Virus record (IMG/VR): IMGVR_UViG_3300003323_000257
Span: 62,001 to 126,000 of that record
From: a virus
Length of the DNA: 64,000 bases
Direction: 5' to 3' (one strand)
A program made the translations under genes and the position numbers. Positions 3,752 through 46,812 of the stretch are shown in pieces (within the stretch, counting starts at the first letter, position 1; each line of letters opens with the position of its first letter). The notes under the pieces are model-generated. The model was not told where the DNA came from. It was given only the letters and a program-made list of their open reading frames with translations, and did no database searches.

Positions 3752-5335
3752 ATGGCAAAACGACAGTCGGGCACCGACCTCGATGATGTGGCGGACAGTA
3801 ACGGTGGTAAGAAATCTCGTATCGACGACAAGATCACGCTGGTCAAGTTCCCTGAAGGCAAATGGCTGCAAGGCCGTCTGTTCGGCAAAATCTACACCTA
3901 TGGTGGATATTGGGTGAAGACCAAAAAGAAGGACGGCAAAGCTACAACCTTCTATGTGTCGTGCCCTTCTTACGATCCACAAACCCAACAACGGGACTCC
4001 TCTATCTATGATCCATGGCGTGATCTGGAAGCCCAGCAGATCGCTGACGGCGTTGAACCAAAAGACCGCCTGATTCGTTTTGCAGTCAAAGGTTACATCA
4101 ACGGTATCGTTCGTTCGGCAGAAAAAGATCGTCCACGCAAGGTCTCGGCTTCCAAGAAGGAACTGAAAACCAAATTCAAAGACAAGGACAGCGAATCGTG
4201 GACTCCGGTCTATGTCTTCCCTCTCGGCAAAGCAGCACTGGGCAAGCTCAAAGAACAAGGTCAGCTGAACACTGTTGAAGTAAAAGGTCAAACCAAGAAC
4301 TTCCCGCTGACTCATGAGAAGTATGGGCGCGATGTTCGTATCAAATACGATTCGACCAAGGCACCGGCGGACCAGTATCAGATCGTGATGGGTGACAAGC
4401 GTACTCCTCTAACCGAGGAACAGCAGGAATATCTGGTGTGGGACCTGTCCGAATTGGAAGCAGAAACCCCTGAGGCAGAAATCAAACGCGATTTTGAATC
4501 GTGGGCAACTCGCAACGGCATCAAACTCAAAGGTAAATCGAAGAAATCCAAAGACGAGGACGATGAGGACGACGAAGACCTGCCAGATGATGACGGCGAC
4601 GATGATGACGAAGACGAGCCAAAATCGAAGAAGGGTAAAAAGGACAAAAAAGCCAAGAAGGGTAAGAAGTCCAAAGACGAGGACGATGAAGACTCTGACG
4701 AAGATGATTCCGATGAGGATGATGATTCTGACGATGAAGAGGACGAGGACGAGGACGAACCAAAGTCCAAGAAATCGAAAGGTAAATCGAAGAAATCCAA
4801 AGACGAGGACGATGAGGATTTCGACGATGATGACGACGAAGACGAACCTAAATCCAAGAAGTCCAAAAAGAAATCCAAGTCTGCTGACGAAGATGAAGAC
4901 GAAGATGACATGGATTCGGATTTCGATGATGACGAGGATGAAGACGATGAACCTAAATCCAAGAAATCTAAGAAGCCAGTAAAAGGCAAGAAGTCTAAAT
5001 CTGATGACGAAGATGAAGACGATGAGGACGAGGACTTCGATGATGACGAAGATGATGAAGAGGACGAACCTAAATCCAAGTCTAAGAAGTCAGTAAAAGG
5101 TAAATCCAAGAAGTCGCGTGATGACGACGAGGATGAAGAAGACGATGAGGATGAGGAGGATGAGGATGAGCCGAAATCCAAGTCCAAGAAATCCAAAGGC
5201 AAATCCAAGAAGTCCAAAGATGAGGACGACGAAGACGACGAGGATGATGACTCGGACGATTTCGACGACGAAGATGAGGACGACGAAGAGGATGAGCGCA
5301 AGTCGAAGAAGTCCAAAAAGAAATCCAAGAAGTAA
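3752..5335 (+). CDS. Single-stranded DNA-binding protein, gp32-like, with giant charged tail
   Basis: 527 residues. Residues about 25-255 resemble phage gp32-type SSBs, with beta strands and aromatic/basic patches. The pattern VYVFPLGKAALGKLKE near 153-168, then YGRDVRIKYD near 191-200, parallels the core before the T4 gp32 tail. From residue 259 to the end the protein is low complexity: eight Lys/Ser blocks (KSKKSK type) alternate with seven Asp/Glu runs. Canonical SSB tails are short and only acidic. T4 gp32 has about 300 residues, so the tail nearly doubles this protein. The ATG has AGGAG nine bases upstream. The recombinase gene follows a terminator, an arrangement that suits replication/recombination. 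The gp32 assignment is by pattern and context. Confidence 0.65.
   Translation: MAKRQSGTDLDDVADSNGGKKSRIDDKITLVKFPEGKWLQGRLFGKIYTYGGYWVKTKKKDGKATTFYVSCPSYDPQTQQRDSSIYDPWRDLEAQQIADGVEPKDRLIRFAVKGYINGIVRSAEKDRPRKVSASKKELKTKFKDKDSESWTPVYVFPLGKAALGKLKEQGQLNTVEVKGQTKNFPLTHEKYGRDVRIKYDSTKAPADQYQIVMGDKRTPLTEEQQEYLVWDLSELEAETPEAEIKRDFESWATRNGIKLKGKSKKSKDEDDEDDEDLPDDDGDDDDEDEPKSKKGKKDKKAKKGKKSKDEDDEDSDEDDSDEDDDSDDEEDEDEDEPKSKKSKGKSKKSKDEDDEDFDDDDDEDEPKSKKSKKKSKSADEDEDEDDMDSDFDDDEDEDDEPKSKKSKKPVKGKKSKSDDEDEDDEDEDFDDDEDDEEDEPKSKSKKSVKGKSKKSRDDDEDEEDDEDEEDEDEPKSKSKKSKGKSKKSKDEDDEDDEDDDSDDFDDEDEDDEEDERKSKKSKKKSKK
4526..5332 (+). repeat. Degenerate Lys-Ser / Asp-Glu coding repeats
   Basis: About 800 bases of imperfect repeats encode alternating basic blocks (AAATCCAAGAAGTCC type) and acidic blocks (GACGAGGACGAT type), eight basic and seven acidic. 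The codons are varied between copies, which argues for long persistence under selection rather than very recent expansion. The bias also creates long false frames on the other strand. Confidence 0.85.
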
Positions 5336-5411: not shown

Positions 5412-6842
5412 ATGGCAAAGAAAGAAAAACCAGTTAAGGAAAAGAAGATCCATAAGGAACCAAAGACAAAGAAGGTAGCAGGTTTCGACTATGATTCAAT
5501 CTATGGTGAATCCATGGACGCTATCGCTCGGCGTCAGGGTGTGGAGACCTCTGCTCTTGATGTGGTTGATCCTGTCTCCACAGGCATGCTTACTACCGAC
5601 CTGCAAATGGGCGGCGGCATTCGTCCCGGTATGTATACCAGCGCTGGTGCAGAACAGTCGGCCAAGACTACCAATGTGTTGGAGTGGATGGCCAACATGA
5701 TCAAGGAGAAGATTCCTCGAATCGAACTTTTTGATTACGAGGGATCAACGAAAAACTCCAAGTCCTACGTTATGTCGATCATGAAAGGGGCTGGCCTGAA
5801 ACTCTCCTATGCCGAGTTATTCGGTAAGAAGGATAAGGAGACTGGTAAATGGCTTATTCGCCCTCGCGTTCACTATCATGCTGAATCCATCGGCGAGAAA
5901 TTCTTTGACTATATGTCGGAGATGCTGCGACAGCTTCCTGACAAGCGTTTCATAGCTAATCAATGGTGGCTGGTATTTGAAAAAACCAAGGACAACATCA
6001 AGAAATACGGAGAGCACGGTGATGAGTCCATGCCTAAGAAATACGGCGAAGGTATTTGGATTCCAGCACCTGATGGAAATATGCAGGCAGCTATCTTTGT
6101 CGACTCCTGGCCGGCAATGAACTCCATCGCAAACGACGAAGAGGATGCAAACAATGGCCTGGCACTACAGGCTCGCATGTTCTCCAAACATCTGCCACGG
6201 GTTAAAGGTCGTTGCGCTTCCAAAATGGTGGCTTTAATCGGTGTCAATCAACTGCGTGCAGTTCCAATGGCAATGTTTGGACCTAAAGAAACTGAACCAG
6301 GTGGTGTGGCACTGCGATTCAATTCGGATGTTCGTATTCGTAATACACCGCGTGGGTCTGGTTATCCGCTGTGGGCCAAAAACTTCAATAAACAGTTCGA
6401 AGAGGTGGAGAAATCTGTTGAATTTCCGGGTCAGTTGGATCGATACCGCTACATTCATACGAAGGCCGTAAAGAACAAACTGTGGACACCTAATCGAGAG
6501 AATTGGATTCGTATTTGGATTGAGGATGGTTCAGGTACAGCACGCGGTCTGGACCCTTTCTTCGATACCATGTACTACCTGAAGCAAACTGGACAATTGG
6601 TCGGCAAAGGTCGGAAGGCCTTAACGTTGAATCTCGAAGGCCTAGGTAAAACCAAACCTTTGTCTTGGGATGAATACAAACAATGGGTGCTTGGTGATAA
6701 GGAAACCATGACAAAAATTTCCAAGAAAGCCGGTGTCAAACCTATGAGTCTTCGATCCTTCTGCTTCAAGCAAATGAAATCTGGCAAAGGTGAGGATCTC
6801 TACGTGAAATGTAAAGACACCAAAATCGACGAGGACGAATAA
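5412..6842 (+). CDS. uvsX: UvsX/RecA-like strand-exchange recombinase
   Basis: 476 residues from the ATG at 5412 (SD AAGGAA). An upstream in-frame codon at 5367 falls inside the terminator and is rejected. It has a RecA-type ATPase core: Walker A GAEQSAKTT at residues 79-87, Walker B AAIFVDSW, and the RecA signature MFGPKETEPGG followed by ALRFNSDVRIR. The protein would coat single strands and drive recombination-dependent replication and repair with the SSB encoded just upstream. In Walker A the usual Gly before Lys is Ala (S-A-K-T). The N-terminal 20 residues are Lys-rich. Very likely the UvsX equivalent. Confidence 0.92.
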   Translation: MAKKEKPVKEKKIHKEPKTKKVAGFDYDSIYGESMDAIARRQGVETSALDVVDPVSTGMLTTDLQMGGGIRPGMYTSAGAEQSAKTTNVLEWMANMIKEKIPRIELFDYEGSTKNSKSYVMSIMKGAGLKLSYAELFGKKDKETGKWLIRPRVHYHAESIGEKFFDYMSEMLRQLPDKRFIANQWWLVFEKTKDNIKKYGEHGDESMPKKYGEGIWIPAPDGNMQAAIFVDSWPAMNSIANDEEDANNGLALQARMFSKHLPRVKGRCASKMVALIGVNQLRAVPMAMFGPKETEPGGVALRFNSDVRIRNTPRGSGYPLWAKNFNKQFEEVEKSVEFPGQLDRYRYIHTKAVKNKLWTPNRENWIRIWIEDGSGTARGLDPFFDTMYYLKQTGQLVGKGRKALTLNLEGLGKTKPLSWDEYKQWVLGDKETMTKISKKAGVKPMSLRSFCFKQMKSGKGEDLYVKCKDTKIDEDE

Positions 6843-6843
6843 C

Positions 6844-7470
6844 ATGAATGAGGCCAACAAGCTGGTACCTGTGGAGCAATCAGAACTCGATAATGCCGAC
6901 GATCTGTTGGCCTCTCTTTCAGATATCGCATATTCCACAGCACCTACTAAACCAGTAAAAGAATCAAAGGCTCGGAAATCTCGTTTCTTTTTTAAGCTTT
7001 CCAAATCCTTTGTTGAGGAAGTGGAAGCCAAGAAGAAGGTCTTCGTTCCACGTCAAATGGTCCACATAGATCACGAGGTGGAGAAACGTCTTAAGGACTA
7101 TAAACAGGAGATACCTTCTGAATTGGAAGCCAACATAAATAAGGTGCGAGAATTCTTCCTCCAAGAGATCGCACCAATAACAATGGCGGCAGGTGCTGGG
7201 GCCTCCCAAGCCCAAGAGGTGGTAAAGCGTCTGGTAAATTCTGATATCGACGGAACTCAATTTGAGAAATTCGAGAAGATGATGGCCAAGGCCGTGGACA
7301 TAAAGATGGCGCGTTTCGTAGCCCGTCAGCTTGGTATGACCAAAAAAGAGGCCGCAGAAATTCTGGCCGAGATGAAGCCTCGCATTCCTCAGATTGTGCC
7401 TATAGGAGTTCCTAGTGAAAGACCCCAAGAAACCCCCAAAGGAAATAAAAAAGCTACAGACATTCGCTGA
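6844..7470 (+). CDS. Unknown protein upstream of terminase
   Basis: A 208-residue protein starting two bases after the recombinase stop. Residues 40-120 are charged and helical. Residues about 150-185 include a helix rich in Lys and Glu (TKKEAAEILAEM). No family was recognised. Being the gene just before the large terminase, it could be a small terminase subunit, but no helix-turn-helix is evident and I do not assign it. Its end overlaps the start of the duplicated terminase fragment by 56 bases. Confidence 0.65.
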   Translation: MNEANKLVPVEQSELDNADDLLASLSDIAYSTAPTKPVKESKARKSRFFFKLSKSFVEEVEAKKKVFVPRQMVHIDHEVEKRLKDYKQEIPSELEANINKVREFFLQEIAPITMAAGAGASQAQEVVKRLVNSDIDGTQFEKFEKMMAKAVDIKMARFVARQLGMTKKEAAEILAEMKPRIPQIVPIGVPSERPQETPKGNKKATDIR

Positions 7471-7642
7471 ACTATTTCCTGATTTTACTACTGATGAGCA
7501 ACGCGAAGAACTGGATAAGTGGGAGCGTAAAACCAAGAAGGCTGTTAAGGAAGGCACCGCCTCCACTATCATTCTTCCTGACGAAAAGGAAATCATTCTT
7601 CCTGACGATTTCGACATAAAGGAGGAGTGCTGCTGTGGTTAA
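7415..7642 (+). pseudogene. Diverged duplicate of the terminase N-terminus
   Basis: A 75-codon frame with a GTG start and good SD (AGGAG, 8-base spacing). Its residues about 18-69 match the N-terminus of the terminase that begins at 8269. Shared elements in order are ELFP-FTTD-QRE, W-E, KK and a final P-D-x-F-D-I-K. By eye about 24 of 53 aligned residues are identical. After the shared FDIK the frame ends in EECCCG. The endonuclease gene starts within its last codons. It is either the remnant of the original terminase start, cut off by the insertion, or a short protein imported with the endonuclease. Confidence 0.75.
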
Positions 7643-8276
7643 ACACTGTATAAAACCTCTTCCACTATCAGCTGATATTCAGGAGGCAGCTGTGCTCGCA
7701 GTAGGTTTGAGAAGTGATGATGCGCGTCAATGGCATCTCAAATGGCGAAACAAGGTAAGGACCTCCAAATATAGAGGCCTGGTCTGCACATTGAGCTTCA
7801 CTCAATATCTTCTATTAGCACTTAAGGCAGGCCTGCGTAAACCTTCAGATATTGGTGACAAGCCGGGAAGTTATGTTCTAGGCCGATTTGGTGACACTGG
7901 AGGATATACCTTCGCCAATTGTAGCTTTATTTTGTACGAAGAAAATTGCTCAGAGGTTCATAGCAACGGTAGATTGGATTACGAAGCTGTGTCCTTATGT
8001 AGAAAGGGTAAAACAAGACATGACACGGAATTTATAGCACGACAATCGGCAACTATGACAGGTCGTAGGAAAGAGACACACGCAGGTCTTGCCATAATCT
8101 CAGATAAGAACAGTAAAAACTTTCGGTTGGTATCGCCGAAAGGAAAAGTCTATACAGGAAGGAACTTAAAGGGGTTCGGCCTGAAGCATAAACTCAATCA
8201 GACAGGTCTATCCCGGCTGTGTCGAGGTGTTCACGAATCTTATAAGGGTTGGACTGGAGAGTACATCGATGACTAA
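7635..8276 (+). CDS. HNH/NUMOD-type homing endonuclease-like protein
   Basis: 213 residues, GTG start behind a very strong SD (AAAGGAGGAG). Residues 34-107 carry a pattern seen in phage HNH-type homing proteins: W-H-L-K-W-R-N-K, then YVLGRFGDTGGYTFANCSF and E-x-N. A strict H-N-H triad is not obvious. Residues about 163-209 look like a NUMOD/helix-turn-helix DNA-binding tail (VSPKGKVYTGRNL, LNQTGLSRLCRG, YKGWTGEY). It sits between the duplicated terminase N-terminus and the complete terminase and overlaps both frames slightly. Confidence 0.75.
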   Translation: MVKHCIKPLPLSADIQEAAVLAVGLRSDDARQWHLKWRNKVRTSKYRGLVCTLSFTQYLLLALKAGLRKPSDIGDKPGSYVLGRFGDTGGYTFANCSFILYEENCSEVHSNGRLDYEAVSLCRKGKTRHDTEFIARQSATMTGRRKETHAGLAIISDKNSKNFRLVSPKGKVYTGRNLKGFGLKHKLNQTGLSRLCRGVHESYKGWTGEYIDD

Positions 8277-10452
8277 AGATAGCAAGGCAGAAAAGAAACG
8301 GATTCTGCTGCTGCACGAATTGTTTCCCGAATTTACCACAGATGCTCAACGTGAATTAATCGAGAGTTGGGAAACTGACTCTAAGAAATCCCAAAAAGCC
8401 GGAAAGACCGACAACTACGTCGAGTTGAAGAATGGTGATTTCGCTGATATCCCGGACTCCTTCGACATCAAGGCTTTGATGGACTTAGCCGAGGACCCTC
8501 TTACTGGCACTATGAGGAATCTTCGTATTGATGACCGCGATCTTCCACATGCCAAAAACTATTGGGACTATTCAGCTCGCATCATCGGCAAGGATGCGAA
8601 CATGCCGTGGGCAAAACAAATGTGGACAGGTCTGATGTTGCACGGCGAGGTATGTACTGCGTGTACCAAATCAAAGTATCTGGACATTCATAACATACCT
8701 AAGGACTTTAACTCGCATGAATTTCCAAAGTTAATGACCTTGCTGGAGTATGGCATTTGTCCTAAGTGTAAGCGTCATAAGTGGGACCTGATAAAGAACC
8801 ACAACATGATGAATTACCTGGAGTTGGTGAATGTGCTGGGTCAGCGTTCAGGTAAGAGCTCCAGTTCTGCAGGCGGCTACGCTCCTTATGATGCACACTG
8901 TTGGATGAAGTTTCCGAGTCTGCCTACTCTGGCTCCTCAGTCCATGCAGGCTTCGACCGAGCTTACCACCACCTTTGTCTCACTCAACACGAGTAAAGCT
9001 ATCGGTGTTATGTGGACTCCGTTCAAGCGCCATATCGAGGACTCCAAGTGGTGGCAGCAGTATTTTGCTATCCTCGATGAATCCAAGAAGAAATATGGAG
9101 TGGAGCTCTATAGGGCCTCGACTCTGTACCTAAAGTTCTTCCATAAGAACATGCACTTCTATCCTACAGGTCCTAGGTCGTCTACACTTCGTGGTGATAC
9201 TAGGAAAGGCGCACTGCTTGACGAATTAGGCTTGTTCCCCTTGCCTCGAGGAGATCAAGAGGAGGATACGGAAAGCGAACGTGCCAACGCAGACGAGGCA
9301 CATAAATCGCTTATGAACTCACTGACCACTGTTCAAGGTATTCGCTGGAAGCTCCTTAAGCAAGGTTATAGCTCGGTTCCTTGGGCAGGCTTAATGTCGG
9401 TATCATCTCCGTTCAGCCTGCGAGATAAGGTAATGCGTTTGTATCGTCACTCCAAAACAGACGAAGGACGTAAAACAGTACTTGGTATTAATCTTCCTAC
9501 CTGGGAGGTTAATCCAGATTTTGATCGAGACAACCCTATCATCGTGGCCGCGTACGCTGCAAACTTTGAAAAGGCGGAGCGAGATTATGGGGCCAATCCA
9601 CCTGCTGTTCATTCACGCTATATGCCAGTTTCGTCTTTTGAGAAGGCGTTTATGAATGGACAGAACTCGCACACCTTCGATTACTGCTTTGATCAACCGG
9701 AATACATATATGGAAAAATCCACAAGATTAGGACATTCAGGTGGCCTTCCATAGTATCAATCGATGCCGGGTCAGTAGATAACTCGTTTACTGTCACAGG
9801 CATGCATTACGATTTTGATGCGAACAAGAGCGTGGTAACTACCGTTCTGGAATGCATGCCGCAGGAAGGGCGTCGAATAAACTTTAACATGCTGTATATT
9901 CACGTGATTCTGCCTTTGTTGAAGGATCTTAACGCCGTAGGATTGCTGGCAGACCAATGGCAGTCAATCGATATTCTGAATCGCGCCCAGGATGACATGG
10001 GAATGAATCCATTAGGTAAACCACGCTGCAAGGCCAAGCAACATTCACCCAACCGTAAGGACTTTGATGCAGTGAGGGCAATGTTAGGTGCAGGTAACGT
10101 TCTGCTGCCTTCGATCAACGAAATGGACGCCAAGAAGATTCTTGAAGGTGGGATTGCCTCATACAAACAGGAAATGGTGAATAAACCTGTTCAGCATCTA
10201 ATGCTTCAAATGAGTACGGTTAAGGACATAGGTCCAGGAAGATGCCCGACCAAAGGGGACGACATGACTGACGATATCTTTAGGGCGATTGTCCTTGGCT
10301 TGGCAAAAATGCACCACCCTAACGTAATGGAGGCCTTAAAAACTGCGTGCTCCTTTAACTACGGTAACAATGGTAATAGGGCACGGATGCCTACCCCTGG
10401 CTACGCCGGGCGTTCTGGAGGCCACGTCCATCGTTGGGCAGGTATACGATAA
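8269..10452 (+). CDS. terL: Terminase large subunit (packaging ATPase-nuclease)
   Basis: 727 residues from the ATG at 8269 (SD GGAGAG). It pumps DNA into the prohead and cuts concatemers. ATPase motifs: Walker A GQRSGKSS at 191-198 and Walker B ALLDELG at 315-321. The nuclease domain begins near SIDAGSVDNS (D499), with ADQWQ near 561-565 and a late acidic GDDMTDD motif. A possible zinc site, C129-x2-C132 and C164-x2-C167, precedes Walker A and is unusual. The first about 68 residues match the separate fragment at 7415-7642. The start overlaps the endonuclease stop. Confidence 0.93.
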   Translation: MTKDSKAEKKRILLLHELFPEFTTDAQRELIESWETDSKKSQKAGKTDNYVELKNGDFADIPDSFDIKALMDLAEDPLTGTMRNLRIDDRDLPHAKNYWDYSARIIGKDANMPWAKQMWTGLMLHGEVCTACTKSKYLDIHNIPKDFNSHEFPKLMTLLEYGICPKCKRHKWDLIKNHNMMNYLELVNVLGQRSGKSSSSAGGYAPYDAHCWMKFPSLPTLAPQSMQASTELTTTFVSLNTSKAIGVMWTPFKRHIEDSKWWQQYFAILDESKKKYGVELYRASTLYLKFFHKNMHFYPTGPRSSTLRGDTRKGALLDELGLFPLPRGDQEEDTESERANADEAHKSLMNSLTTVQGIRWKLLKQGYSSVPWAGLMSVSSPFSLRDKVMRLYRHSKTDEGRKTVLGINLPTWEVNPDFDRDNPIIVAAYAANFEKAERDYGANPPAVHSRYMPVSSFEKAFMNGQNSHTFDYCFDQPEYIYGKIHKIRTFRWPSIVSIDAGSVDNSFTVTGMHYDFDANKSVVTTVLECMPQEGRRINFNMLYIHVILPLLKDLNAVGLLADQWQSIDILNRAQDDMGMNPLGKPRCKAKQHSPNRKDFDAVRAMLGAGNVLLPSINEMDAKKILEGGIASYKQEMVNKPVQHLMLQMSTVKDIGPGRCPTKGDDMTDDIFRAIVLGLAKMHHPNVMEALKTACSFNYGNNGNRARMPTPGYAGRSGGHVHRWAGIR

Positions 10453-34310: not shown

Positions 34311-37300
34311 TAGTAGTTCCTTCCGCCATCGTTACCGAGCCAAGCAGTACCAGCTCGATTGGATTTGAAGATATACACGTCTGCCTTACCGTTGGTTGAC
34401 GTTGCTGTCGGAACAGTACCGTTGGCCCAACGTACGGTGCCACCTGCAAACGTCAGCGTGTGTGCACCGCCGTAGTTGATGGTCAAAGTAAAGCTCTTAC
34501 CAGCAGCTGGCGTAGGCAACGTTGCAGTGAAGTTTGCGTTGGTCGTGAATTCCCAATCAGTACCTTGCGTAAGGTCAACCGTACCAGCCGAACCTGCTGC
34601 TGGCGAGCTACCACTTTCTGTGAAGTTGGTGATAGTCGGATTGGTCAGGGTAGCACCACTGGAGTTACCTGACACCGCTTGACCATTAGCCTTCGTATAG
34701 AAGTCACAACGCCAGTTACCAGAACCCAGCGAGGTAAACTGCGCAACGTCACCTGCTGCAGTAGTGATGTTTGCAGCTCCAGGCAGAATCAACGATGTAC
34801 CGTTATGAGTCAGCGTCAGTGCACCTTGGAACGTCAACTTACGGCGTGCACCACTTGCAATGGTGTCGAATGCAGTAATCGTCGTCGTACCTGAGATACT
34901 GATATCGTTGGCAGCAGCTGCACCAATATTCACAGTAGCAGCAGAGGCCAACGTTGCGATCGGAGCATTGTTAAGCGCACCGCTCATGGTACCACCAGCC
35001 AATGGCAGTTTGGTAGCATCCGGTGTTCCAACAAATGCCTGACCGTTAGCTCGCGAGTATGCGATACATACCCACACACCACTACCTTTCGACACAAATG
35101 TTGCTTGGTCGTTTGTTGCCGTCTGAATGTTGGCCGCACCAGGCAAGAGCAAGGTACTTGCATTGTAAGTCAACAGCGGGGCACCAATAAAGTTCAAGGT
35201 CTTCACTGCACCGTCAGGAGCAGTATCGAACGCTGTTATCGTGGTCGAACCAGTGATATTGATAACGTTGGAGTTAGCTGCACCGATGTTAGTCGTTGCG
35301 GCCGCACCTACGTTGATCGTTGCTGCCCAATTCAAGTTACCCGACATCGAGTCACCTGCCTTGTTCACTGGTGTGTAACCCAAGGCAGTAGTCACATCAC
35401 CGGAGGCCAGATTAGCACCTACCGTCACACGGCCTTTTGCGTCCACTGTTACTTTAGTGTAAGTACCGGCAGTAACTCCTGAGGCAGCCAGAGTAGTTGC
35501 ACTGGAACCTGAAGTAGTAACATCACCACTCAGGTTAGGCACTGCACCTGTTTGACCAAACACCGAAGTCACCGCAGACGAGCTGACGACAGCCTGGCCA
35601 TTGGCCTTGGTATAGAACTCACAACGCCAGTTACCACCACCTAACGATACGAACTGAGCCACATCCCCTGCGGCAGTGGTAATGCTAGCTCCACCTGGCA
35701 GAATCAGCGAAGTCGCATTATGGGTGAGAGTAAGTGCTCCGTTGAACGTCAGAGTCCTTACTGCACCACTTGCGATGGTATCAAACGCAGTAATGGTAGT
35801 AGTACCAGTGATGGTGATCTCATTGGCTGCCGCTGCTCCGATGTTCACAGTAGCTGCCGACGCCAACGTTACAGCGGCAGCACCATTAACTGCACCACTG
35901 AAGGTATCACCTGCCTTATTAGCTGGTGTGTAACCCAGGGCAGTAGTCACGTCTGACGAACCAATATTCGCACCTACTGTTACCTGGCCCTGTGCATTCA
36001 CAGTCACCTTGCTGAACGTACCAGTGGACACGCCAGTGTTGGTGATCGAGAATTGGTTACTGCTCAAGGTCAGACCAGTGCCGGCAGTGTACGGAGTGCT
36101 ACCTACTACAGCTTGACCGTTGGCCTTTGTGTAGTAATCACATACCCAGTTGCCTGAGCCTTTCGAAGTGAACTGCGCAACGTCACCTGCTGCAGTAGTG
36201 ATGTTTGCTGCACCTGGAAGTATCAGCGAAGTAGCGTTGTGGGTTAAGGTCAGCGCACCAGCAAATACCAGTGTACGGACGGCCCCTGAAGCAATGGAGT
36301 CAAACGCAGTAATGGTAGTAGTGCCTGTAATGCTGATATCGTTGGCTGCCGCTGCTCCGATATTTACGGTCGATGCCGAAGCGAGAGTTACCGTAGGTGC
36401 GTTGTTGATAGCACCACTCATCGTGCCACCAGCCAACGGCAATTTGGTAGCGTCAGGAGCACCAACCAACGCCTGACCACTTGCTGAATTGTAGCTTATG
36501 CATTTCCAGTTACCGCTACCTAAGGACACAAACTCGGCAACGTCTCCAGCCGCCGTCTGAATGTTGGCACCAGTTGGCAGAATCAGCGAAGTTGCGTTGT
36601 GAGTCAACGTCAAGGAAGCCGCAAAGATCAGAGTACGGTAAGCACCCCCAGCAATGGTATCGAATGCTGTGATGGTCGTCGTACCCAGCACATTAACCGT
36701 ATTGGTGGTTGCTGCGCCAATCGGTGTCGTAGCTGCGGCGGTTACGTTGGCCAACGGAGCAAGATTAACTGCACCGCTGAAGGTATCACCAGCTTTGTTA
36801 GCTGGAGTGTAGCCTAATGCCGTAGTCACATCACCGGAGGCCAGATTTGCACCTACCGTCACACGACCTTTGGCATCAACAGTTACTTTTGTATAGGTAC
36901 CAGCCGACACACCGCTGTTGGCTAATGCTACAGTGATAGCAGTGCTGCCGCTGCCAGTAGCGTCTCCGCTCAGTGTGATCGTCTGGTTTGCAGAGATATA
37001 ACCGCTCGGATTCGCTGCGTCGTAAGGAGTAAAGCCTAACGCCGTAGTTACGTCTGAAGATGCAATGTTCGCACCAACAGTTACGCGGCCCTTCGCGTCT
37101 ACCGTGACCTTGGTGTAAGTACCGGCAGTTACGCCAGAAGCCGCCAGCGTAGTGGTAATAGAGCCAGTGCCAGAACCAGTGACATCACCAGTCAGAGTAG
37201 TGGAGCCAGAAGCACCACTGGTTTGTGCGTACGTTACCCCAGTAGTACCTACAGTAATCGTACCTGTATTGGTGTTCAGCCACTGTGTATGAGCATTTGC

Positions 37301-40300
37301 AGTACCGTTCAGAACCATTACGATCTGATTCAGCAGTTGTGCTCCTGTAGCTGCGTCGGTTGCACGAGTCCAGGCGCCTGAAGCCACTACATAGATACCA
37401 TTCTGGGCCGAAGTACTTTGATCCTTGGCAAGTACGCGATCTCCAACCTGAGCGGCATAACCGTCGATTGTTTGCGTGCCGCTCAGAGTCAGGTCCGCTG
37501 TAGACGCTACTTGCACCACTTGTTTCCAAGATACTGCATTCAACGTAGCAGTGTCGCCTGCGTCCGTGTACGACTTATTAGACACATCAGTGTTACCTGA
37601 AGGATTTGGCACGCCTGTCACGGTAGCGCCACCAGTCATGACGATATTACCGGTCATTGTGCCGCCAGCCAGTGCCAGGGCGTCAGTGATGCCGAAGCCA
37701 GCTAACGTCGTTGGATTCGTACCGTTGGTAACACGACCTTTAGCATCTACGGTTACAGACTTGTAAGTACCTGCAGTCACTCCAGAAGCTGCCAGAGTCA
37801 GAGCAATAGCAGTAGTACCGCTACCTGTAGCATCTCCGGAAACAGTGATGTTCTGGTTAGCCGAGATATAACCACTCGGGTTAGTTGCATTGTATGGAGT
37901 GAATCCCAATGCAGTAGTAACATCCGACGAATTCAGGGACGCACCAGTGGTTACTTGGCCTTGAGCATTTACAGTCACCTTGGTGTAGGTACCAGTTGTA
38001 ACGCCGGTGTTGGTGATCGAGAACTGATTTGAGGTCAGAGTCAGACCGGTACCAGCGGTATAAGGAGTGCTTGCGCCCTGCAATTCAGTGTAGGAGATTG
38101 GATCGGTATCTACAACAGGCTGAGTCGAATTGGTGTTCACCCACTGCGTCAGTTGCTGAGTTGTTCCGTTAAGCACCAGAATTGCCATGCCTTGGATTTC
38201 TACACCAGTATCAACATCAGTGGCTCGCGACCACGCACCTGCAGCCGCAACATAAACACCGTTTTCAACAGGGTTTGTCTGATTCTTCACCAGAACACGA
38301 TCACCTGATTGTACAGCATAACCATCAATGGTTTGCAGGCCACTCAGAGTAATATCTGCCGTAGTTGCAACCTGGGCGTTAGCTTTCCACGAAATGCCAT
38401 TCGACAGACTTGCGATTTGCGACTGTACCCACGACATTGAGGCGGCATCTCCTGGATTAACCGGAGTAGGAACACCTGTAACAGTAGCACCGCTGGTCAG
38501 TGTGATATTGCCTGATACCGAACCGCCTGTATTAGCCAGAGCATTGGTGATGCCATAACCGGCCAGTGTAGTGGGGTTAGCACCTGTAGTCACTCGGCCT
38601 TTGGCATCCACAGTAACCTGCGTATAAGTACCTGCAGAAACGCCACTGTTGGCCAGCGTAAGGGCAATCGAGGTCGAACCTGTGCCAGAAGCATCACCAG
38701 AAACAGTGATCACTTGGTTGGCAGTAAGGAAGCCGTTAGGATTGGTGCCACCGTTATACGGAGTGTATCCCAGAGCAGTGGTAACGTCCGAGGAATTCAG
38801 TGATGCACCTACAGTCACACGGCCTTTGGTGTCCACCGTTACTTTGGTGTATGTGCCTGCAGAAACGCCACTGTTGGCCAGCGTCAACGCGATAGCTGTG
38901 GTGCCACTACCTGAGGCGTCACCAGATACCGTAATGTTTTGGTTACCTGAGATAAAGCCGCTTGGATTGGTGCCGCCATTATAAGGGATATATCCCAAGG
39001 CAGTAGTCACATCACCGGAGGCCAGAGAAGCTCCAACAGTTACACGCCCCTTCGCATCTACTGTTACTTTGGTGTAGGTACCAGCAGTCACGCCTGTGTT
39101 GGAAAGCGTAGTCGCAATGGAGCCTGTACCTGATCCGATAACATCACCAGTCAAGGTAGTGGAACCTGCCGTTGCCGACAGTATGCCAGAACCGTCTATG
39201 GAAAGGCCACTACCAACTCGAATCACACCCAGAGTCGATGCCGACGCAATCGGTGAGCTACCTGCAGTGGCTGCAATAGTCAGAGTACCGTTGCCGTCAT
39301 CGGTAATAGTAACGTTGGTGCCTGCTGCAATGTCTTTCAGTTGAGCGGCACTACCTACCTGCTGACGATACAACGAGGTAGCTACGCCTGAACCCTCAAC
39401 CGATTGCAGTGCGCTGTTGATGGTGTTCATCACAGCAGTTTTGATGTCGATGTTACCATTCACATCCACTGAAATATTGGATGCGTTAGGCACAATTACA
39501 CCGCCCAAACCTGTCGAAGTGGCTGGGGTCAACGGCATGTCGGCTGATGCGATGGTTACTGTGCCTAATCCATCGTCAGTAAGCGTAACATTGGTACCAG
39601 CCTTGATGGACTTCAGATTCAGAACACCGCCACCTTGGTTATTAACCAGAGAGGTACCAGTTCCTGCCGAGGTAGCTGCGCCAAATTTACCATTTATGGT
39701 AGTGATCAAGGCTGCCTTAATATCGACATTACCCTGCACATCAACAACCAGATTCGAAGCACTAGGAACAATCACACCACCTAATACAGTAGTAGTGGCA
39801 ATTGGCAGAACGTAAGGAGCCGGGGCGCCGATCAGATCCGAATATTGACCTGTCTTACCAACAGTCGATATACCGCCGATGTTGGCTGCAGTCAGCAGAA
39901 CATTGCCACTGCCGTCTGGCATCTGGCCGTTTACTGAAGTCACAGTGCCAGAACCGCCACCGCCGCCTGCAGGTGGAGTACGTACAGCGTATACGGCGTT
40001 GCCATGAACAACATTCAGGCCGCCTTGTTGTACACCATTTTTGAAGACTGTCGAACCTGTAGGTGCAGTCACATCATCGGTATGGTTACTATAAACGTTG
40101 ATGGTGTCGCCTCGGATTACCGAATAGCAGACATCAGGATACGGCATGGCAAACTGCCAGTGCGTACCCAGGAAGACGTAAAGACCTTGCTTCAAATCAC
40201 CAACATCGTTGAGCAGAATCGTTACCTCATTGTCAGGTTCCAGTGGAAGAGTGTGCACAACCTGCGCAACGTCTGGGCTGCTGGCAGAGTCCTGGTGCAC

Positions 40301-40336
40301 TGTAACTGGATAGTAAAACACTGATTGGGTTGTCAT
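34310..40336 (-). CDS. Giant modular tail fibre (2008 aa)
   Basis: SD AAAGGTC. Residues 1-125 are an anchor shared with the proteins at 41318-44680 and 46084-46803 (GLYVFLGTHWQFAMPYPD; STVFKNGV). The body is built of repeats: nine short units of the type GVTAGTYTKVTVDAKGRVT; five about 90-residue units (TTTITAFDTIASGA, LTLTHNATSLILP, GDVAQFTSLGSGNWRC); and two about 100-residue units (TIDGYAVQSGDRVLVKNQT, NGVYV). The last 110 residues are a different cap. This would be a long trimeric fibre. Extensive DNA repetition should promote recombination. The LamG gene follows in overlap. Confidence 0.85.
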   Translation of the reverse strand: MTTQSVFYYPVTVHQDSASSPDVAQVVHTLPLEPDNEVTILLNDVGDLKQGLYVFLGTHWQFAMPYPDVCYSVIRGDTINVYSNHTDDVTAPTGSTVFKNGVQQGGLNVVHGNAVYAVRTPPAGGGGGSGTVTSVNGQMPDGSGNVLLTAANIGGISTVGKTGQYSDLIGAPAPYVLPIATTTVLGGVIVPSASNLVVDVQGNVDIKAALITTINGKFGAATSAGTGTSLVNNQGGGVLNLKSIKAGTNVTLTDDGLGTVTIASADMPLTPATSTGLGGVIVPNASNISVDVNGNIDIKTAVMNTINSALQSVEGSGVATSLYRQQVGSAAQLKDIAAGTNVTITDDGNGTLTIAATAGSSPIASASTLGVIRVGSGLSIDGSGILSATAGSTTLTGDVIGSGTGSIATTLSNTGVTAGTYTKVTVDAKGRVTVGASLASGDVTTALGYIPYNGGTNPSGFISGNQNITVSGDASGSGTTAIALTLANSGVSAGTYTKVTVDTKGRVTVGASLNSSDVTTALGYTPYNGGTNPNGFLTANQVITVSGDASGTGSTSIALTLANSGVSAGTYTQVTVDAKGRVTTGANPTTLAGYGITNALANTGGSVSGNITLTSGATVTGVPTPVNPGDAASMSWVQSQIASLSNGISWKANAQVATTADITLSGLQTIDGYAVQSGDRVLVKNQTNPVENGVYVAAAGAWSRATDVDTGVEIQGMAILVLNGTTQQLTQWVNTNSTQPVVDTDPISYTELQGASTPYTAGTGLTLTSNQFSITNTGVTTGTYTKVTVNAQGQVTTGASLNSSDVTTALGFTPYNATNPSGYISANQNITVSGDATGSGTTAIALTLAASGVTAGTYKSVTVDAKGRVTNGTNPTTLAGFGITDALALAGGTMTGNIVMTGGATVTGVPNPSGNTDVSNKSYTDAGDTATLNAVSWKQVVQVASTADLTLSGTQTIDGYAAQVGDRVLAKDQSTSAQNGIYVVASGAWTRATDAATGAQLLNQIVMVLNGTANAHTQWLNTNTGTITVGTTGVTYAQTSGASGSTTLTGDVTGSGTGSITTTLAASGVTAGTYTKVTVDAKGRVTVGANIASSDVTTALGFTPYDAANPSGYISANQTITLSGDATGSGSTAITVALANSGVSAGTYTKVTVDAKGRVTVGANLASGDVTTALGYTPANKAGDTFSGAVNLAPLANVTAAATTPIGAATTNTVNVLGTTTITAFDTIAGGAYRTLIFAASLTLTHNATSLILPTGANIQTAAGDVAEFVSLGSGNWKCISYNSASGQALVGAPDATKLPLAGGTMSGAINNAPTVTLASASTVNIGAAAANDISITGTTTITAFDSIASGAVRTLVFAGALTLTHNATSLILPGAANITTAAGDVAQFTSKGSGNWVCDYYTKANGQAVVGSTPYTAGTGLTLSSNQFSITNTGVSTGTFSKVTVNAQGQVTVGANIGSSDVTTALGYTPANKAGDTFSGAVNGAAAVTLASAATVNIGAAAANEITITGTTTITAFDTIASGAVRTLTFNGALTLTHNATSLILPGGASITTAAGDVAQFVSLGGGNWRCEFYTKANGQAVVSSSAVTSVFGQTGAVPNLSGDVTTSGSSATTLAASGVTAGTYTKVTVDAKGRVTVGANLASGDVTTALGYTPVNKAGDSMSGNLNWAATINVGAAATTNIGAANSNVINITGSTTITAFDTAPDGAVKTLNFIGAPLLTYNASTLLLPGAANIQTATNDQATFVSKGSGVWVCIAYSRANGQAFVGTPDATKLPLAGGTMSGALNNAPIATLASAATVNIGAAAANDISISGTTTITAFDTIASGARRKLTFQGALTLTHNGTSLILPGAANITTAAGDVAQFTSLGSGNWRCDFYTKANGQAVSGNSSGATLTNPTITNFTESGSSPAAGSAGTVDLTQGTDWEFTTNANFTATLPTPAAGKSFTLTINYGGAHTLTFAGGTVRWANGTVPTATSTNGKADVYIFKSNRAGTAWLGNDGGRNY
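34680..36740 (-). repeat. Five about 90-residue fibre modules (type B)
   Basis: Five related coding units lie roughly at 34680-34930, 35035-35290, 35595-35850, 36115-36370 and 36475-36730. Each encodes IGAA, TTTITAFDT, TLTHNATSLILP and GSGNWxC landmarks. Boundaries are approximate. Confidence 0.8.
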
Positions 40337-40386
40337 AACTGGACCTTTACTCTAAAAAGGATTGAAAACTAAAATTGATCATTTTG

Positions 40387-41271
40387 CTAGATCGTAACCC
40401 CAGTAATGCCATTAGAAACACCGACGCCGCTGCCAATGTTCGTGGCAAAGGTTGCAGAGCCACCTGTTATGGCATCATTGGAATACTGGTAGACATTGGT
40501 TGCCGTTCCCACGGTGAATACGCCTACTGTGTCGTTGCCGCATCCACACCCACCTGTGTTACTGAGGGCCAAACCGGAAACTATTGCTGTTGTTTCTCCG
40601 GCATATACATATTTCTGCATCAAGTTTGTACCGGTGCTGGACTGAGCAAATACTCCAAGATTTGCGTTACCTGCACTCATACCGATGGAATAAAATCCAG
40701 TTTGTGTTTGGAACGAAGTTCCTGCAGTTACCGAACCGCCTGACCATGTGTACTTGTTAGTGGTCTTAGTACCATTACCTACACCTACGATTGCATAGGT
40801 TGTATTAGCTGTGGTACCGCCTCGGAGTTCATTATTTATGACCGAAACTACTGATGAAGTCGAGGATGCATGTGTATATATTATGGCGTTTGGTGTATTA
40901 CCTCCGCACATTATCAAACCTGTGGCAGCAGTACTAGCTCCTGCGCTGCTGTTAACCACCGTAGACGCCAAAGCAGCTCCTGCTATGGACGTAGACGAAG
41001 GGAACTGCCATTTGGAACTATTGGCAGTACTGGCTGCCAGTGCAATAACACCAGTACTTGAATTAGATAAACCTGCACCGTATGAACCAAGTTGAGATGA
41101 CAGATTACTGGAAGTAGCAACTGCATTGTTTGAAAAATTGTAGAGTACAGTGGTGGTTGTGGCTGCGGGTTTGGCAAACAAACCTTGCGTTCCTACTGGA
41201 AGCTTTGTTGCCTTTAAGAACTGACCAAAACCCGTGGCACTCATTATGCCTCGTGACGCTATGATTGGCAT
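40387..41271 (-). CDS. Repeat-built adhesin, paralogue of 49918-50799
   Basis: 294 residues, SD AAAGGAATC. The N-terminus FLKATKLPVGTQGLFAKP matches the start of the protein at 49918-50799 (VKLPNGTQGIFIKN). The rest has imperfect about 45-residue beta units (NKYTWSGGSVTAGTSFQTQT; QKYVYAGETTAIVSGLAL), each followed by N-x-T-G-V or similar. Its C-terminus GVSNGITGVTI matches GASNGVSGVSA in the paralogue. The repetition suggests a beta-propeller-like receptor-binding protein. Located between the two largest fibre genes. Confidence 0.65.
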   Translation of the reverse strand: MPIIASRGIMSATGFGQFLKATKLPVGTQGLFAKPAATTTTVLYNFSNNAVATSSNLSSQLGSYGAGLSNSSTGVIALAASTANSSKWQFPSSTSIAGAALASTVVNSSAGASTAATGLIMCGGNTPNAIIYTHASSTSSVVSVINNELRGGTTANTTYAIVGVGNGTKTTNKYTWSGGSVTAGTSFQTQTGFYSIGMSAGNANLGVFAQSSTGTNLMQKYVYAGETTAIVSGLALSNTGGCGCGNDTVGVFTVGTATNVYQYSNDAITGGSATFATNIGSGVGVSNGITGVTI

Positions 41272-41292
41272 CTTGATTCCTTTGTGAAGGGA

Positions 41293-41310
41293 GGGTCTCC
41301 GAAAAGACCC
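41293..41310 (-). terminator. Short hairpin between adhesin and fibre genes
   Basis: GGGTCT (41293-41298) pairs with AGACCC (41305-41310) around a six-base loop. On the minus strand it is followed by CTCCCTT, a poor T-run, so termination would be partial at best. Confidence 0.35.
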
Positions 41311-41317
41311 TTTACGC

Positions 41318-44300
41318 TTATTTGTACTGAGACTGAGCAGCCAATACGGTGTAGGTACCTGACGCTGTTTTGATTATGGTGTAGGTATACGCATCGATAC
41401 TATTCGCGTTGCCTGCTGCAGGAGCTCCGTTACCACCTAACCACCTTTGGGCTACCGCTGATCCGTCAATCTGGAAAGAGGTAGGAGCAAATGGTGTTCC
41501 GCCCTGTGTAGCTGCGATTACGACTGTCAAGGCGTCTCCAATCGACATAATGCTATTCAGAGTTACCCCTGCAGCCCATTGAATGTTAGGCACCCAGTTA
41601 GCAGTAGCTGCGCCAGTGTACAATGTGACAGCACCGCTTGATACGTTAATGGTAGCCGCAGCAGGAACACCGCTACCAACCACATTCACTAACTCTGCTA
41701 CATCAGTGAACTTAGCAGCTATTGCTCCGGTGGAGCCATTGAATATCTGAGTTGTGGTAAACGGAGAACCAGTGGAAAGAGCGCTGCCATTAGCACGCTG
41801 ATACCACAGGCACCGCCAGTTACCGCTGCCAAGGGATTCGAATTCAGCTGAATCTCCAACGGCTGCATTGATGGATGCTGATGTTGGCAGAATCAGAGCA
41901 GTCGGGTTGTACTGCAGCGTCAGACTACTTCCAAATACCACAGTACGGCAGGTACCTGCTGCCACGCTATCGAATGCTGTGATAGTGCCGGCACCTGAGA
42001 TCGTGACATTATTGGAATTGGCAGCTCCAATGTTTACCGTACTTGCGGTAGTTAAAGCAACAGCGGCAGCAAAGTTCACTGCACCTGTCATCGTGCCACC
42101 AGCCAACGGCAGCTTGGTAGCGTCTGGAACTGCTACCAATGGTTGACCTGTTGCCCTCGTGTAGAAGTCGCAACGCCAGTTGTTCGAACCTAGCGAAGTG
42201 AATTCTGCCACGTCTCCTGCAGCTGTGGTAATGTTGGCCCCAGTTGGCAGGATCAGATTGCTGCTGTTGGTCAATGTCAACGCACCAGCAAATGTTAGTT
42301 TACGAACTGCACCAGCAGCGATGGTATCAAATGCATTAATGGTTGTTGTGCCAAGAATCGTCAGATCGTTGGCATTGGCCGCGCCAATTGGCGTGGTTGC
42401 AGCAGCCGTCAGAATAACTTGAGGAGCACCGTTGATAGCACCGCTCATCGTACCACCTGCCAACGGCAGTTTGGTGTTATCCGTTGCTGGCGCCAAAGGT
42501 TGACCATTAGCTCGCTGGTAGCTTATGCAACGCCAATTGCCTCCACCTAAGGATTCAAACGTTGCTGTATCACCTGCTGCCGTGGTGATATTAGCTGCAG
42601 TAGGCAGAATCAGAGAGGTTGCGTTGTAGGTCAGTGTCAACACACCGTTAAATGTTACATCACGAGTCGCACCGCTTGCAATGGTGTCGAACGCTGTGAT
42701 GGTGGTTGTACCAGAGATGATAACTGCATTCGAACCGGCTGCACCAATTGGCGTGGTTGCTGCTGAGGACACAGTAACAAGAGGTGCCCAATTAAGCGCA
42801 CCAGCCATTGTGTCTCCAGCCTTGTTCACAGGAGTGAACCCGAGTGCAGACAGAATCTGTGCTTGAGAAATCGAACCGCCTACAGTTACACGGCCTTTAG
42901 CATCCACCGTCACGGAGGTGTAAGTACCAGCAGTAACTCCACTATTGGCCAGCGTTAAAGCTATGGAACCACTTGCGCCAGATACAACTGCGGTGCCTGT
43001 TGCATCTCCAGTTGCGGTCAATCCACCGATGAATCCGCTTGGGTTGGTAGTACCGTTATACGGCGTGTAGCCTAACGCCGTATTTATGTCTGAGGCGCTA
43101 AGGTTGGTGCCTGCAATTACCTGACCCTGTGCATTCACAGTCACCTTGGTGTAAGTGCCTGCGGCAACTCCAGTATTAGCAATGCTAACAGTTAGGCCAG
43201 AAATCTGGATACCTGCACCTGCCGTGTACACGTTTGCTGCCCCGCGGAGCTGGCCCCATGTAATAGGATCGGTACCAACAACCGGCTGAGTCGAATTGGT
43301 GTTGGTCCATTGTTCCAGTGCTTGCGTAGTTCCGTTGAGAATCAACACTGCGGCATGGAAGATTTCAGCACCAGTGTCGGTGTCAGTGGCACGAGTCCAC
43401 GAACTGGACGATGCTACGTACACACCGTTTTCAATCGGATTGGTTTGGTTTTTAACCAGAACGCGATCACCTGATTGCACGGCATAGCCATCAGTGGTTT
43501 GAAGTCCGGAGAGCGTCACGTTCGCAGTAGTCGCTGCCTGGACAGAAGTCTTCCAGAATACACCATTGGCTGCTGCTGCAAGTGCGGCGTCCAGGCTTTG
43601 TTTGTTCACCGAATCCAACGGATTAACCGGATCAGGAATACCAGTCACGGTGGAGCCTGAAGACATCGTGATGTTGCCGGTCATTGTACCGCCAACCAAA
43701 GGCAGTGCATCGGTAATGCCAAATCCTGCCAACGTTGTTGGATTTGTTCCTGCGGTCACACGACCTTTGGTGTCCACCGTCACTGATTTGTAAGTGCCCG
43801 GAGTTACTCCTGTAGCAGACAACACAGTAGGAACGGTACCTGTGCCACTACCAGTAACATCTCCTGTCAGTGTAACTGTTCCACTACCACCTCCAGTGGA
43901 AGCGATCACCAGTCCGTTGTTACCATCGTCAGAAATCATGATGTTAGTGCCGGCTACCAGTGAACGCATATTTGCGTTACCACCGCCTTGCGAGGCAATC
44001 AGTGAAGAGCCAACACCGAGAGAAGTTAAAGTTCCGATCTTACCATTGATCAGCCCCATGGTGGCCGAACTTAAATCAATATTACCTTGGCCATCTACGG
44101 AAATGTGTGAGGTAAGAGGCACCATAACTCCACCCAACACGGTTGCCGTAGCAATTGGCAACACGTAAGGATCGGGAGCACCAATCAGATCAGAGTACAG
44201 GCCAGTCTTACCAACAGTCGATATACCTGGTATATCATTGGCTGTCAGCGCGATGTTACCATTCACGTCAGGACCGATATTGTTGACGAACTTGACCTCG

Positions 44301-44680
44301 CTTAAAGCCGCCCCAGAAGGATAGCGTACAGCATAAACCGCTGCAGCCGGTTCGATGTCATGACCAACCTGCAGCTGGCCATTGCGATAAACAATAGACG
44401 TTGGTCCTAGTGTTTGAGACCCGGTAATGTTTATGTAGACTGCACTGGTGTCACCACCAACAACGATGGCACTCACTGCCTCTATAGGCATGGCATAGCG
44501 CCACGTCTGAGTGTCATCATATACATACATACCGGCCACGAACGTACCTACTGGAGCATCCAGAATTACAGCACGGCTGGATGTAGGCACTATAGGCAGT
44601 GCGTCTACGTAAGGAATGAGAATAGGTCCGGAGTTTGGACCATCGTACAGAGTTGACTGTATGAAGAGAGGAGTAGCCAT
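41318..44680 (-). CDS. Modular tail fibre (1120 aa)
   Basis: SD AAAGGAAATC. Residues 1-125 carry the shared anchor (GMYVYDDTQTWRYAMPIEA; SIVYRNGQL). Then come segments also found in the giant fibre (DIPGISTVGKTGLYSDLIGAP is nearly identical), three short GTYTKVTVNAQGQV-type units, three type B modules and one TTDGYAVQSGDRVLVKNQT module. The last 150 residues are unique (WLGGNGAPAAGN, YTYTIIKTASGTYTVL). Likely a second trimeric fibre attached at the same kind of site, or a segment joined to the giant fibre. Confidence 0.83.
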   Translation of the reverse strand: MATPLFIQSTLYDGPNSGPILIPYVDALPIVPTSSRAVILDAPVGTFVAGMYVYDDTQTWRYAMPIEAVSAIVVGGDTSAVYINITGSQTLGPTSIVYRNGQLQVGHDIEPAAAVYAVRYPSGAALSEVKFVNNIGPDVNGNIALTANDIPGISTVGKTGLYSDLIGAPDPYVLPIATATVLGGVMVPLTSHISVDGQGNIDLSSATMGLINGKIGTLTSLGVGSSLIASQGGGNANMRSLVAGTNIMISDDGNNGLVIASTGGGSGTVTLTGDVTGSGTGTVPTVLSATGVTPGTYKSVTVDTKGRVTAGTNPTTLAGFGITDALPLVGGTMTGNITMSSGSTVTGIPDPVNPLDSVNKQSLDAALAAAANGVFWKTSVQAATTANVTLSGLQTTDGYAVQSGDRVLVKNQTNPIENGVYVASSSSWTRATDTDTGAEIFHAAVLILNGTTQALEQWTNTNSTQPVVGTDPITWGQLRGAANVYTAGAGIQISGLTVSIANTGVAAGTYTKVTVNAQGQVIAGTNLSASDINTALGYTPYNGTTNPSGFIGGLTATGDATGTAVVSGASGSIALTLANSGVTAGTYTSVTVDAKGRVTVGGSISQAQILSALGFTPVNKAGDTMAGALNWAPLVTVSSAATTPIGAAGSNAVIISGTTTITAFDTIASGATRDVTFNGVLTLTYNATSLILPTAANITTAAGDTATFESLGGGNWRCISYQRANGQPLAPATDNTKLPLAGGTMSGAINGAPQVILTAAATTPIGAANANDLTILGTTTINAFDTIAAGAVRKLTFAGALTLTNSSNLILPTGANITTAAGDVAEFTSLGSNNWRCDFYTRATGQPLVAVPDATKLPLAGGTMTGAVNFAAAVALTTASTVNIGAANSNNVTISGAGTITAFDSVAAGTCRTVVFGSSLTLQYNPTALILPTSASINAAVGDSAEFESLGSGNWRCLWYQRANGSALSTGSPFTTTQIFNGSTGAIAAKFTDVAELVNVVGSGVPAAATINVSSGAVTLYTGAATANWVPNIQWAAGVTLNSIMSIGDALTVVIAATQGGTPFAPTSFQIDGSAVAQRWLGGNGAPAAGNANSIDAYTYTIIKTASGTYTVLAAQSQYK
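41780..42770 (-). repeat. Three type B fibre modules
   Basis: Three units homologous to those at 34680-36740 lie near 41780-42035, 42140-42395 and 42490-42760 (landmarks TTTITAFDT or variants, SLILPT, GNWRC). Boundaries are approximate. The two arrays lie about 5 kb apart in the same orientation. Confidence 0.75.
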
Positions 44681-44691
44681 GATTTCCTTTG

Positions 44692-45066
44692 TTAGCTGAC
44701 GAACCAGCGAGTTTGCGAATGAATATACTGTATGGTTATAGATTGGTTTGCTACAAGCGAATTAGGCAAACCTGTTACTGTGGCCCCGCTACTAGACCAT
44801 GTAACCGCCGCTCTATTTGTTGTAGAAGAAAACGTAAGCAATAATCCGTCTATTGATGCAGATGCAGCAGGCAGCGTTACAGCTAAACCTGCTCCAGACG
44901 TTCCATTAAGGAAGTGATACCGAGTTGATGCTGTTACTGCGGTAACAGTACCAGTAAAAACTGTTCTTGATAGATTGGATATCATACCTTCTATCAAATA
45001 GTCGGTGAGCGAATTTTCCGTTATAGTGCCACTCACATTCACTAAAGGGCGTCGTGGTGCTACCAT
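44692..45066 (-). CDS. Small fibre-domain protein A (tandem pair)
   Basis: 124 residues. Begins RRPLVNVSGTITENSLTD and ends SITIQYIHSQTRWFVS, nearly the same as the next gene upstream on the minus strand. The body (RYHFLNGTSGAGLAVTLP, GATVTGLPNSL) resembles fibre module B. No SD is present before the ATG (CAAAATCAAAAAA), so translation may rely on reinitiation. Probably a tail-tip or fibre accessory protein. Confidence 0.65.
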   Translation of the reverse strand: MVAPRRPLVNVSGTITENSLTDYLIEGMISNLSRTVFTGTVTAVTASTRYHFLNGTSGAGLAVTLPAASASIDGLLLTFSSTTNRAAVTWSSSGATVTGLPNSLVANQSITIQYIHSQTRWFVS

Positions 45067-45084
45067 TTTTTTGATTTTGATGAA

Positions 45085-45462: not shown

Positions 45463-45465
45463 GAT

Positions 45466-46074: not shown

Positions 46075-46083
46075 TTAATTCTC

Positions 46084-46803: not shown

Positions 46804-46812
46804 TGTGCCTCC

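Follow-up and report, generated by a model that had tools for sequence, protein, structure and literature searches.

In the genome of a large bacterial virus, the gene for the terminase large subunit (terL) is still whole although a mobile gene lies inside it, apparently because the inserted endonuclease brought along a diverged version of the gene's front end. The native 5' end of terL (7415-7621) stops at the codons for FDIK. Next comes the gene of an HNH-type endonuclease, which has a ribosome-binding site to itself, and beyond this gene lies another terL 5' end; the latter is deeply diverged and continues in frame, at the same FDIK codons, into the native body of terL. The locus clearly bears the traces of an insertion in which a gene end was replaced, with homing as the most likely route, and we consider it probable that it represents a homing element of the gene-end-replacing kind. 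The DNA analysed (hereafter the window) comprises 64,000 nucleotides, bases 62001-126000 of a 133,922-base virus record, and all positions refer to it. For comparison, 58 terL relatives were gathered, of which the closest (L001-L005) are termed group A and members of the next clade (L009-L012 and L045) group B. The window terminase has its nearest matches in IMG/VR phages, followed by BcepSauron and BcepSaruman, jumbo phages of Burkholderia (53%), and the order recA-like gene, 208-aa gene, terL, RuvC is common to the window and BcepSauron. The genes flanking the locus are group A-like (ssb-like 82%, upstream gene 71%, ruvC 79%). The features of the locus are as follows.

6844..7470, plus strand: upstream gene of 208 aa, adjoining terL throughout this phage clade, with its 3' end overlapping the native terL start (identity to relatives; overlap in relatives).
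7415..7621, plus strand: displaced native terL N-terminus (the remnant), codons 1-69, an intact frame with a GTG start and AGGAG at 7404-7408 (identity, HMM, tree).
7610..7622, plus strand: left 13-nt direct repeat TTCGACATAAAGG, containing the FDIK codons; left junction of the insert (repeat search; native homology ends here).
7622..7642, plus strand: tail EECCCG and stop of the 75-codon frame, non-homologous, holding most of the endonuclease Shine-Dalgarno sequence AAGGAGGAG (sequence; not in relatives).
7635..8276, plus strand: predicted free-standing HNH-type homing endonuclease gene, 213 aa, GTG start, sharing 8 nt with the stop of the remnant's frame and another 8 nt with the start of terL (PHROG 2081; I-HmuI profile match; absent from the site in sampled relatives).
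8269..8472, plus strand: putative incoming N-terminus of the complete terL, residues 1-68, with GGAG at 8256-8259 (identity; head scores higher with group B).
8461..8473, plus strand: right 13-nt repeat TTCGACATCAAGG; right junction, with group A-like sequence from here (repeat search; alignment).
8473..10452, plus strand: native terL body, 659 codons (PHROG 17415 terminase large subunit, 3.5e-204; groups with group A at 100/100).

The four frames of the locus follow one another closely: the 208-aa gene (6844-7470), the 75-aa frame (GTG at 7415, stop at 7642), the endonuclease (7635-8276) and terL (8269-10452) overlap successively by 56, 8 and 8 nt, and a Shine-Dalgarno sequence precedes each start of the last three. 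The upstream gene shares 65-71% identity with its counterparts in L001, L003 and L004 and 45-49% with those in L009, L011 and L012, and its overlap with the terL start is present in all six. Relatives with an intact 5' region possess one terL start, which lies close to the end of the 208-aa gene or overlaps it. A sequence-only reading of this DNA had described a terminase N-terminus present twice, on either side of an endonuclease that begins directly after the FDIK codons, with a complete downstream copy. Both frames are indeed as it described them. The endonuclease starts at a GTG 14 nt downstream of the AAG of FDIK, behind a perfect Shine-Dalgarno sequence at 7619-7627, and the downstream terL extends from ATG 8269 to the stop at 10452 (727 aa) and aligns to its relatives across the entire length. 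The gene has thus not been left as two complementary pieces, as in the split gene of the Aeh1 nrdA type. A group I intron or an intein was considered and rejected, since no Rfam intron family matches in the region and the endonuclease is read in a frame of its own, with a separate stop codon on one side and a separate start codon on the other; with its own start, stop and Shine-Dalgarno sequence, it is free-standing.

The two N-termini are clearly similar and deeply diverged. The remnant and the N-terminus of the complete terL are identical at 26 of 66 aligned residues over the full length (39%) and at 23 of 50 from LFP to FDIK (46%), with a local match of 48% over 52 aa (E about 4e-9 to 9e-9); the similarity is far above chance and ends at FDIK. 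The sequence-only reading had noted diverged third codon positions, and the count agrees: shared amino acids use the same codon in 13 of 25 cases, against 10.8 expected from codon usage alone. Synonymous codons this near to random argue that the copies are not a recent duplication, and that they were not duplicated at the insertion unless the insertion is very old.

Identity, profiles and the tree of the terL body together identify the upstream fragment as the native 5' end, still at its old site, and the complete terL as a hybrid. With the N-termini of L001, L003 and L004 the remnant shares 69, 61 and 68% identity, respectively, and it scores 119 bits with a profile of group A N-termini against 67 bits with that of group B. 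The N-terminus of the complete terL shares 35-36% with these same three relatives, whereas the remainder of that protein shares 78-82%, and the step in identity is located at the FDIK codons, precisely where the upstream copy ends. The head of this second N-terminus (first 44 residues) scores 46.3 bits with group B and 35.7 bits with group A, shares with group B an LL before the LFP motif and LIE or MIE after it, and has lost the IILP motif; its last 24 residues match nothing well. The alignment and tree of both N-termini with endonuclease-free relatives, which the sequence-only reading had proposed, place the remnant inside group A (support 96/95) and the N-terminus of the complete gene outside it on a long branch, while the terL body groups with A (100/100). 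The 75-codon frame is evidently the virus's original terL N-terminus, at its ancestral site overlapping the upstream gene, and the functional terL is by the same comparisons a hybrid of an incoming 5' end on a native body. The native copy, in other words, is the upstream one, opposite to what a quick reading implies. The remnant's frame is undecayed and its branch is as short as that of L004 (0.22 against 0.24), which suggests a fairly recent insertion; taken with the diverged synonymous codons, this indicates that the second N-terminus had diverged before its arrival. Two origins had been put forward in the earlier reading, and the results divide them: the profiles and the identity step give good support to an endonuclease that carried flanking terminase sequence with it out of a distant relative, while rescue of the gene by duplication is disfavoured by the near-random codons.

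An older duplication nonetheless deserves consideration. The native N-terminus might have been duplicated in tandem long ago, and the endonuclease could have entered between the two resulting copies; the downstream one would then have diverged fast, perhaps under selection to escape cutting, and the upstream one would have been kept. The remnant is intact, and within the core it is by a small margin the nearest match of the second N-terminus (46%); moreover, a sister relation of the two is disfavoured by the AU test at p = 0.07, which lies above the 5% rejection level, and for this reason we keep a small share of probability for an old duplication in which both copies were retained. Against it stand the LL and (L/M)IE residues that the second head shares with group B, together with its advantage of 10.6 bits there over group A. 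Near-random synonymous sites beside a remnant evolving at a normal rate would, furthermore, demand very long selection on the remnant. We accordingly regard an old duplication as unlikely.

The intact remnant raises a second, decidedly improbable reading, in which the 75-aa product is a functional separate subunit, a split or duplicated terL N-terminal domain that acts in trans with the hybrid terL or in the regulation of packaging. The frame does have its own GTG and Shine-Dalgarno sequence and overlaps both neighbours, and split genes are tolerated by phages, as in the Aeh1 nrdA case (PMC2988022). Its intactness, however, also fits a recent insertion, and the completeness of the downstream terL removes the need for complementation by such a product. 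A conserved 75-residue gene in endonuclease-free relatives, the observation that the sequence-only reading had named as speaking against its account, was not encountered in any relative: the N-terminus is fused to terL where the 5' region is intact, and among annotated phages the collection searched has no stand-alone gene related to the 75-aa frame.

The endonuclease itself belongs to a sporadic family. It matches PHROG 2081 (HNH endonuclease, 4.9e-10), and the profile of its family aligns with I-HmuI in that enzyme's C-terminal part (PDB 1u3e, 7.7e-6), consistent with an I-HmuI-like DNA-binding part; a Pfam I-HmuI NUMOD-like match on the homologue L008 falls below the cut-off (5e-4). Pfam, including its HNH families, and NCBIfam gave no match to the endonuclease, and its AlphaFold model (pLDDT 49) is too poor for a fold search. 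The family shares a conserved stretch, R-GD-GxY-xxxCxFI-N, and occurs in 2 of 17 related records. A second member in the same genome, 38% identical (L063:1438-2148; G000:C1:43934-44524), lies directly after a full-length polA and overlaps its stop, and further homologues are found in L071, L072 and Burkholderia phage FLC9. No partial gene duplication was seen beside the other copies whose flanks were compared (L063, L071, L072, L008, L076-L079), so that one example of a duplicated gene end is known. One homologue (L078/L079; G008:C1:177666-178139) aligns to the family profile as two segments, the middle being absent, and is possibly a deleted copy. It could be argued that the HNH gene has been domesticated as a nuclease for packaging, as with the HK97-type HNH beside the terminase, and that its position is functional and not a homing footprint, as HNH genes upstream of the terminase can act in cos cleavage (discussed in PMC10448857). 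We think this very improbable: the endonuclease is absent from the terL site in the approximately 50 related loci examined, its homologues adjoin unrelated genes (e.g., polA and a helicase), and the duplicated gene end would be left unexplained.

The insert measures 851 bp, carries the HNH-type endonuclease and the diverged N-terminus, and is flanked by the 13-nt repeat TTCGACATMAAGG, for which the search pattern TTCGACATNAAGG has just two matches in the 64 kb (0.01 expected), 851 bp apart. In the upstream copy native homology ends after TTC GAC ATA AAG G, and in the complete terL group A-like sequence starts at TTC GAC ATC AAG G; recombination between the two repeats would give back an in-frame native terL. 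Exact junction scans found neither junction in another public contig, as might be expected if the assembly had fused two related phages of the metagenome. Such a chimera is the least credible of the alternatives, since the sequences joined at the left junction share only about 5 nt (AAAGG) and the outcome is three overlapping frames with Shine-Dalgarno sequences, an in-frame complete terL and homology that breaks off at one and the same codon on both sides. The native N-terminal fragment also contains an exact 17-nt direct repeat, ATCATTCTTCCTGACGA, with copies 24 nt apart (window 7568-7608; IILPDEKEIILPDD), which the second N-terminus lacks.

For the replacement of the gene end, we propose the following course of events. 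The endonuclease would recognise and cut an endonuclease-free terL near the FDIK codons, and the break would be repaired from a co-infecting donor phage carrying the endonuclease before its terL. On the right side, recombination would take place at the conserved FDIK codons, and on the left the ends would be joined at or very near the cut. The outcome would be a whole hybrid terL, its half of the target probably uncuttable, and a displaced native 5' fragment. This fragment and the terL body may then flank the cargo like two homology arms, in which case the locus could home into a related endonuclease-free terL by ordinary break repair, as has been put forward for the yeast WHO elements. Searches with the endonuclease, its family alignment and the incoming N-terminus found no donor phage with this endonuclease before terL, and no terL was found in bacterial genome contigs; a Pfam TerL search of the virus's own genome gave no match and is uninformative. 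Somewhat more speculatively, the locus could be an active phage homing cassette, complete in itself, that moves the endonuclease jointly with a cut-resistant 5' gene end and uses the displaced fragment as its homology arm. It would then be a mirror image of the WHO elements, of independent origin in phages, and would drive the mosaic evolution of terminase N-termini; this extension we advance tentatively.

Within the literature searched, the route of a replacement gene end is so far known only from yeast nuclei and fungal mitochondria. The yeast WHO nuclease cuts FBA1, and repair from the WHO-bearing chromosome installs the nuclease together with a resistant 3' end, the old 3' end being left behind as a gene fragment and acting as a homology arm (PMC7282813). 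In the WHO elements of Torulaspora and Lachancea yeasts, as at the phage locus, an endonuclease gene stands between a complete hybrid target and a displaced native-end fragment, and no splicing is involved (PMC7282813). The phage counterpart of the target is a complete gene with one end diverged and the rest native (35-36% against 78-82%), and beyond the endonuclease gene lies the displaced native end (119 bits with group A). The differences are that WHO affects the 3' end of the nuclear FBA1 and encodes an intein-zinc finger nuclease, whereas here the 5' end of a phage terminase and an HNH-type enzyme with an I-HmuI-like C-terminus are concerned; and cleavage and resistance have been shown for WHO, whereas for the phage locus we infer them. 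As nuclease type and gene end differ, the locus is not a member of the WHO family, though it would work like one. Similarly, mobile ORFs in the atp6, atp9, cox2 and nad3 genes of fungal mitochondria (Glomus) consist of an endonuclease ORF with a diverged foreign piece of the host gene, the native piece persisting on the far side, but they replace C-terminal pieces, encode LAGLIDADG or GIY-YIG nucleases and are mitochondrial (PMC3630166). An Allomyces atp6 mobile ORF is cited in the same paper (PMC3630166).

Phage endonucleases offer partial likenesses. According to PMC2988022, free-standing homing endonuclease genes (HEGs) inserted in phage genes are reported as split genes, with homing otherwise occurring between genes with co-conversion, and Aeh1 mobE in nrdA and T4 mobA in gene 60 are transposition-like insertions. 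They share with the present locus a free-standing, intronless phage HEG inside an essential gene, but there the gene is split into two needed polypeptides (PMC2988022), while here the downstream gene is complete and hybrid. The intronless homing of the T4 seg and mob genes and the HEG-islands likewise involve an HEG beside an essential gene, cutting of the neighbour and co-conversion of the flank; repair there uses homology on both sides of the HEG, and the excerpts of PMC2988022 and PMC10448857 used here make no mention of a displaced gene-end fragment. HEGs are also described as marking boundaries of genetic exchange in phages (PMC10448857). No precedent for a 5'-end replacement that restores a whole gene in phages was found in the open-licence PubMed Central papers searched. 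The earlier description of the entry route as unusual thus holds for phages and has to be qualified for fungi, where equivalent 3'-end events are known (PMC7282813, PMC3630166). Bringing a replacement gene end would be a third route for free-standing phage endonucleases, besides the usual ones of sitting between genes or splitting one. It would explain how an intronless selfish gene enters an essential gene without killing the phage, offer a driver for the fast, mosaic evolution of terminase N-termini, and predict a specific, assayable cut site.

Several further observations concern this genome and its relatives. The recA-like gene (window 5412-6842) is a second discordant segment, less than 2 kb from the terL insertion: it is 77% identical to L011, 66-69% to L009, L012 and L038, and 52-54% to group A, and the genes on either side are group A-like. 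The interrupted terL or recA genes of L018, L041, L054, L057 and L060 were considered as parallel cases and rejected, being continuous long frames with intein-like sequence or a fractured intein. Intein-like insertions occur at differing sites in long continuous frames in L054, L057 and L060/L061 (terL) and in L018 (recA). The recA of L041 (L041:1-4383) has an intein-like insertion and is further on apparently fractured, with an N-part, approximately 2 kb containing a separate 703-aa frame, and a C-part opening with intein-like sequence that ends in VSHN. In this phage clade, mobile elements have repeatedly targeted both terL and recA. The tail-protein repeat seen in L074 proved unrelated. The protein encoded at 3752-5335 bears a long low-complexity tail rich in D, E, K and S (window 4378-5335), which is also present in relatives, and is annotated as ssDNA-binding in the relative Motura. 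Finally, on the minus strand at 34313-46812, two large neighbouring frames of 2013 and 1147 aa are paralogous, with 61% identity across 567 residues, and have their N-terminus in common with a 242-aa frame; at 44695-45465, two frames of about 126-130 aa lie in tandem and are 66% identical. The frames of this region are possibly fibre-like genes.
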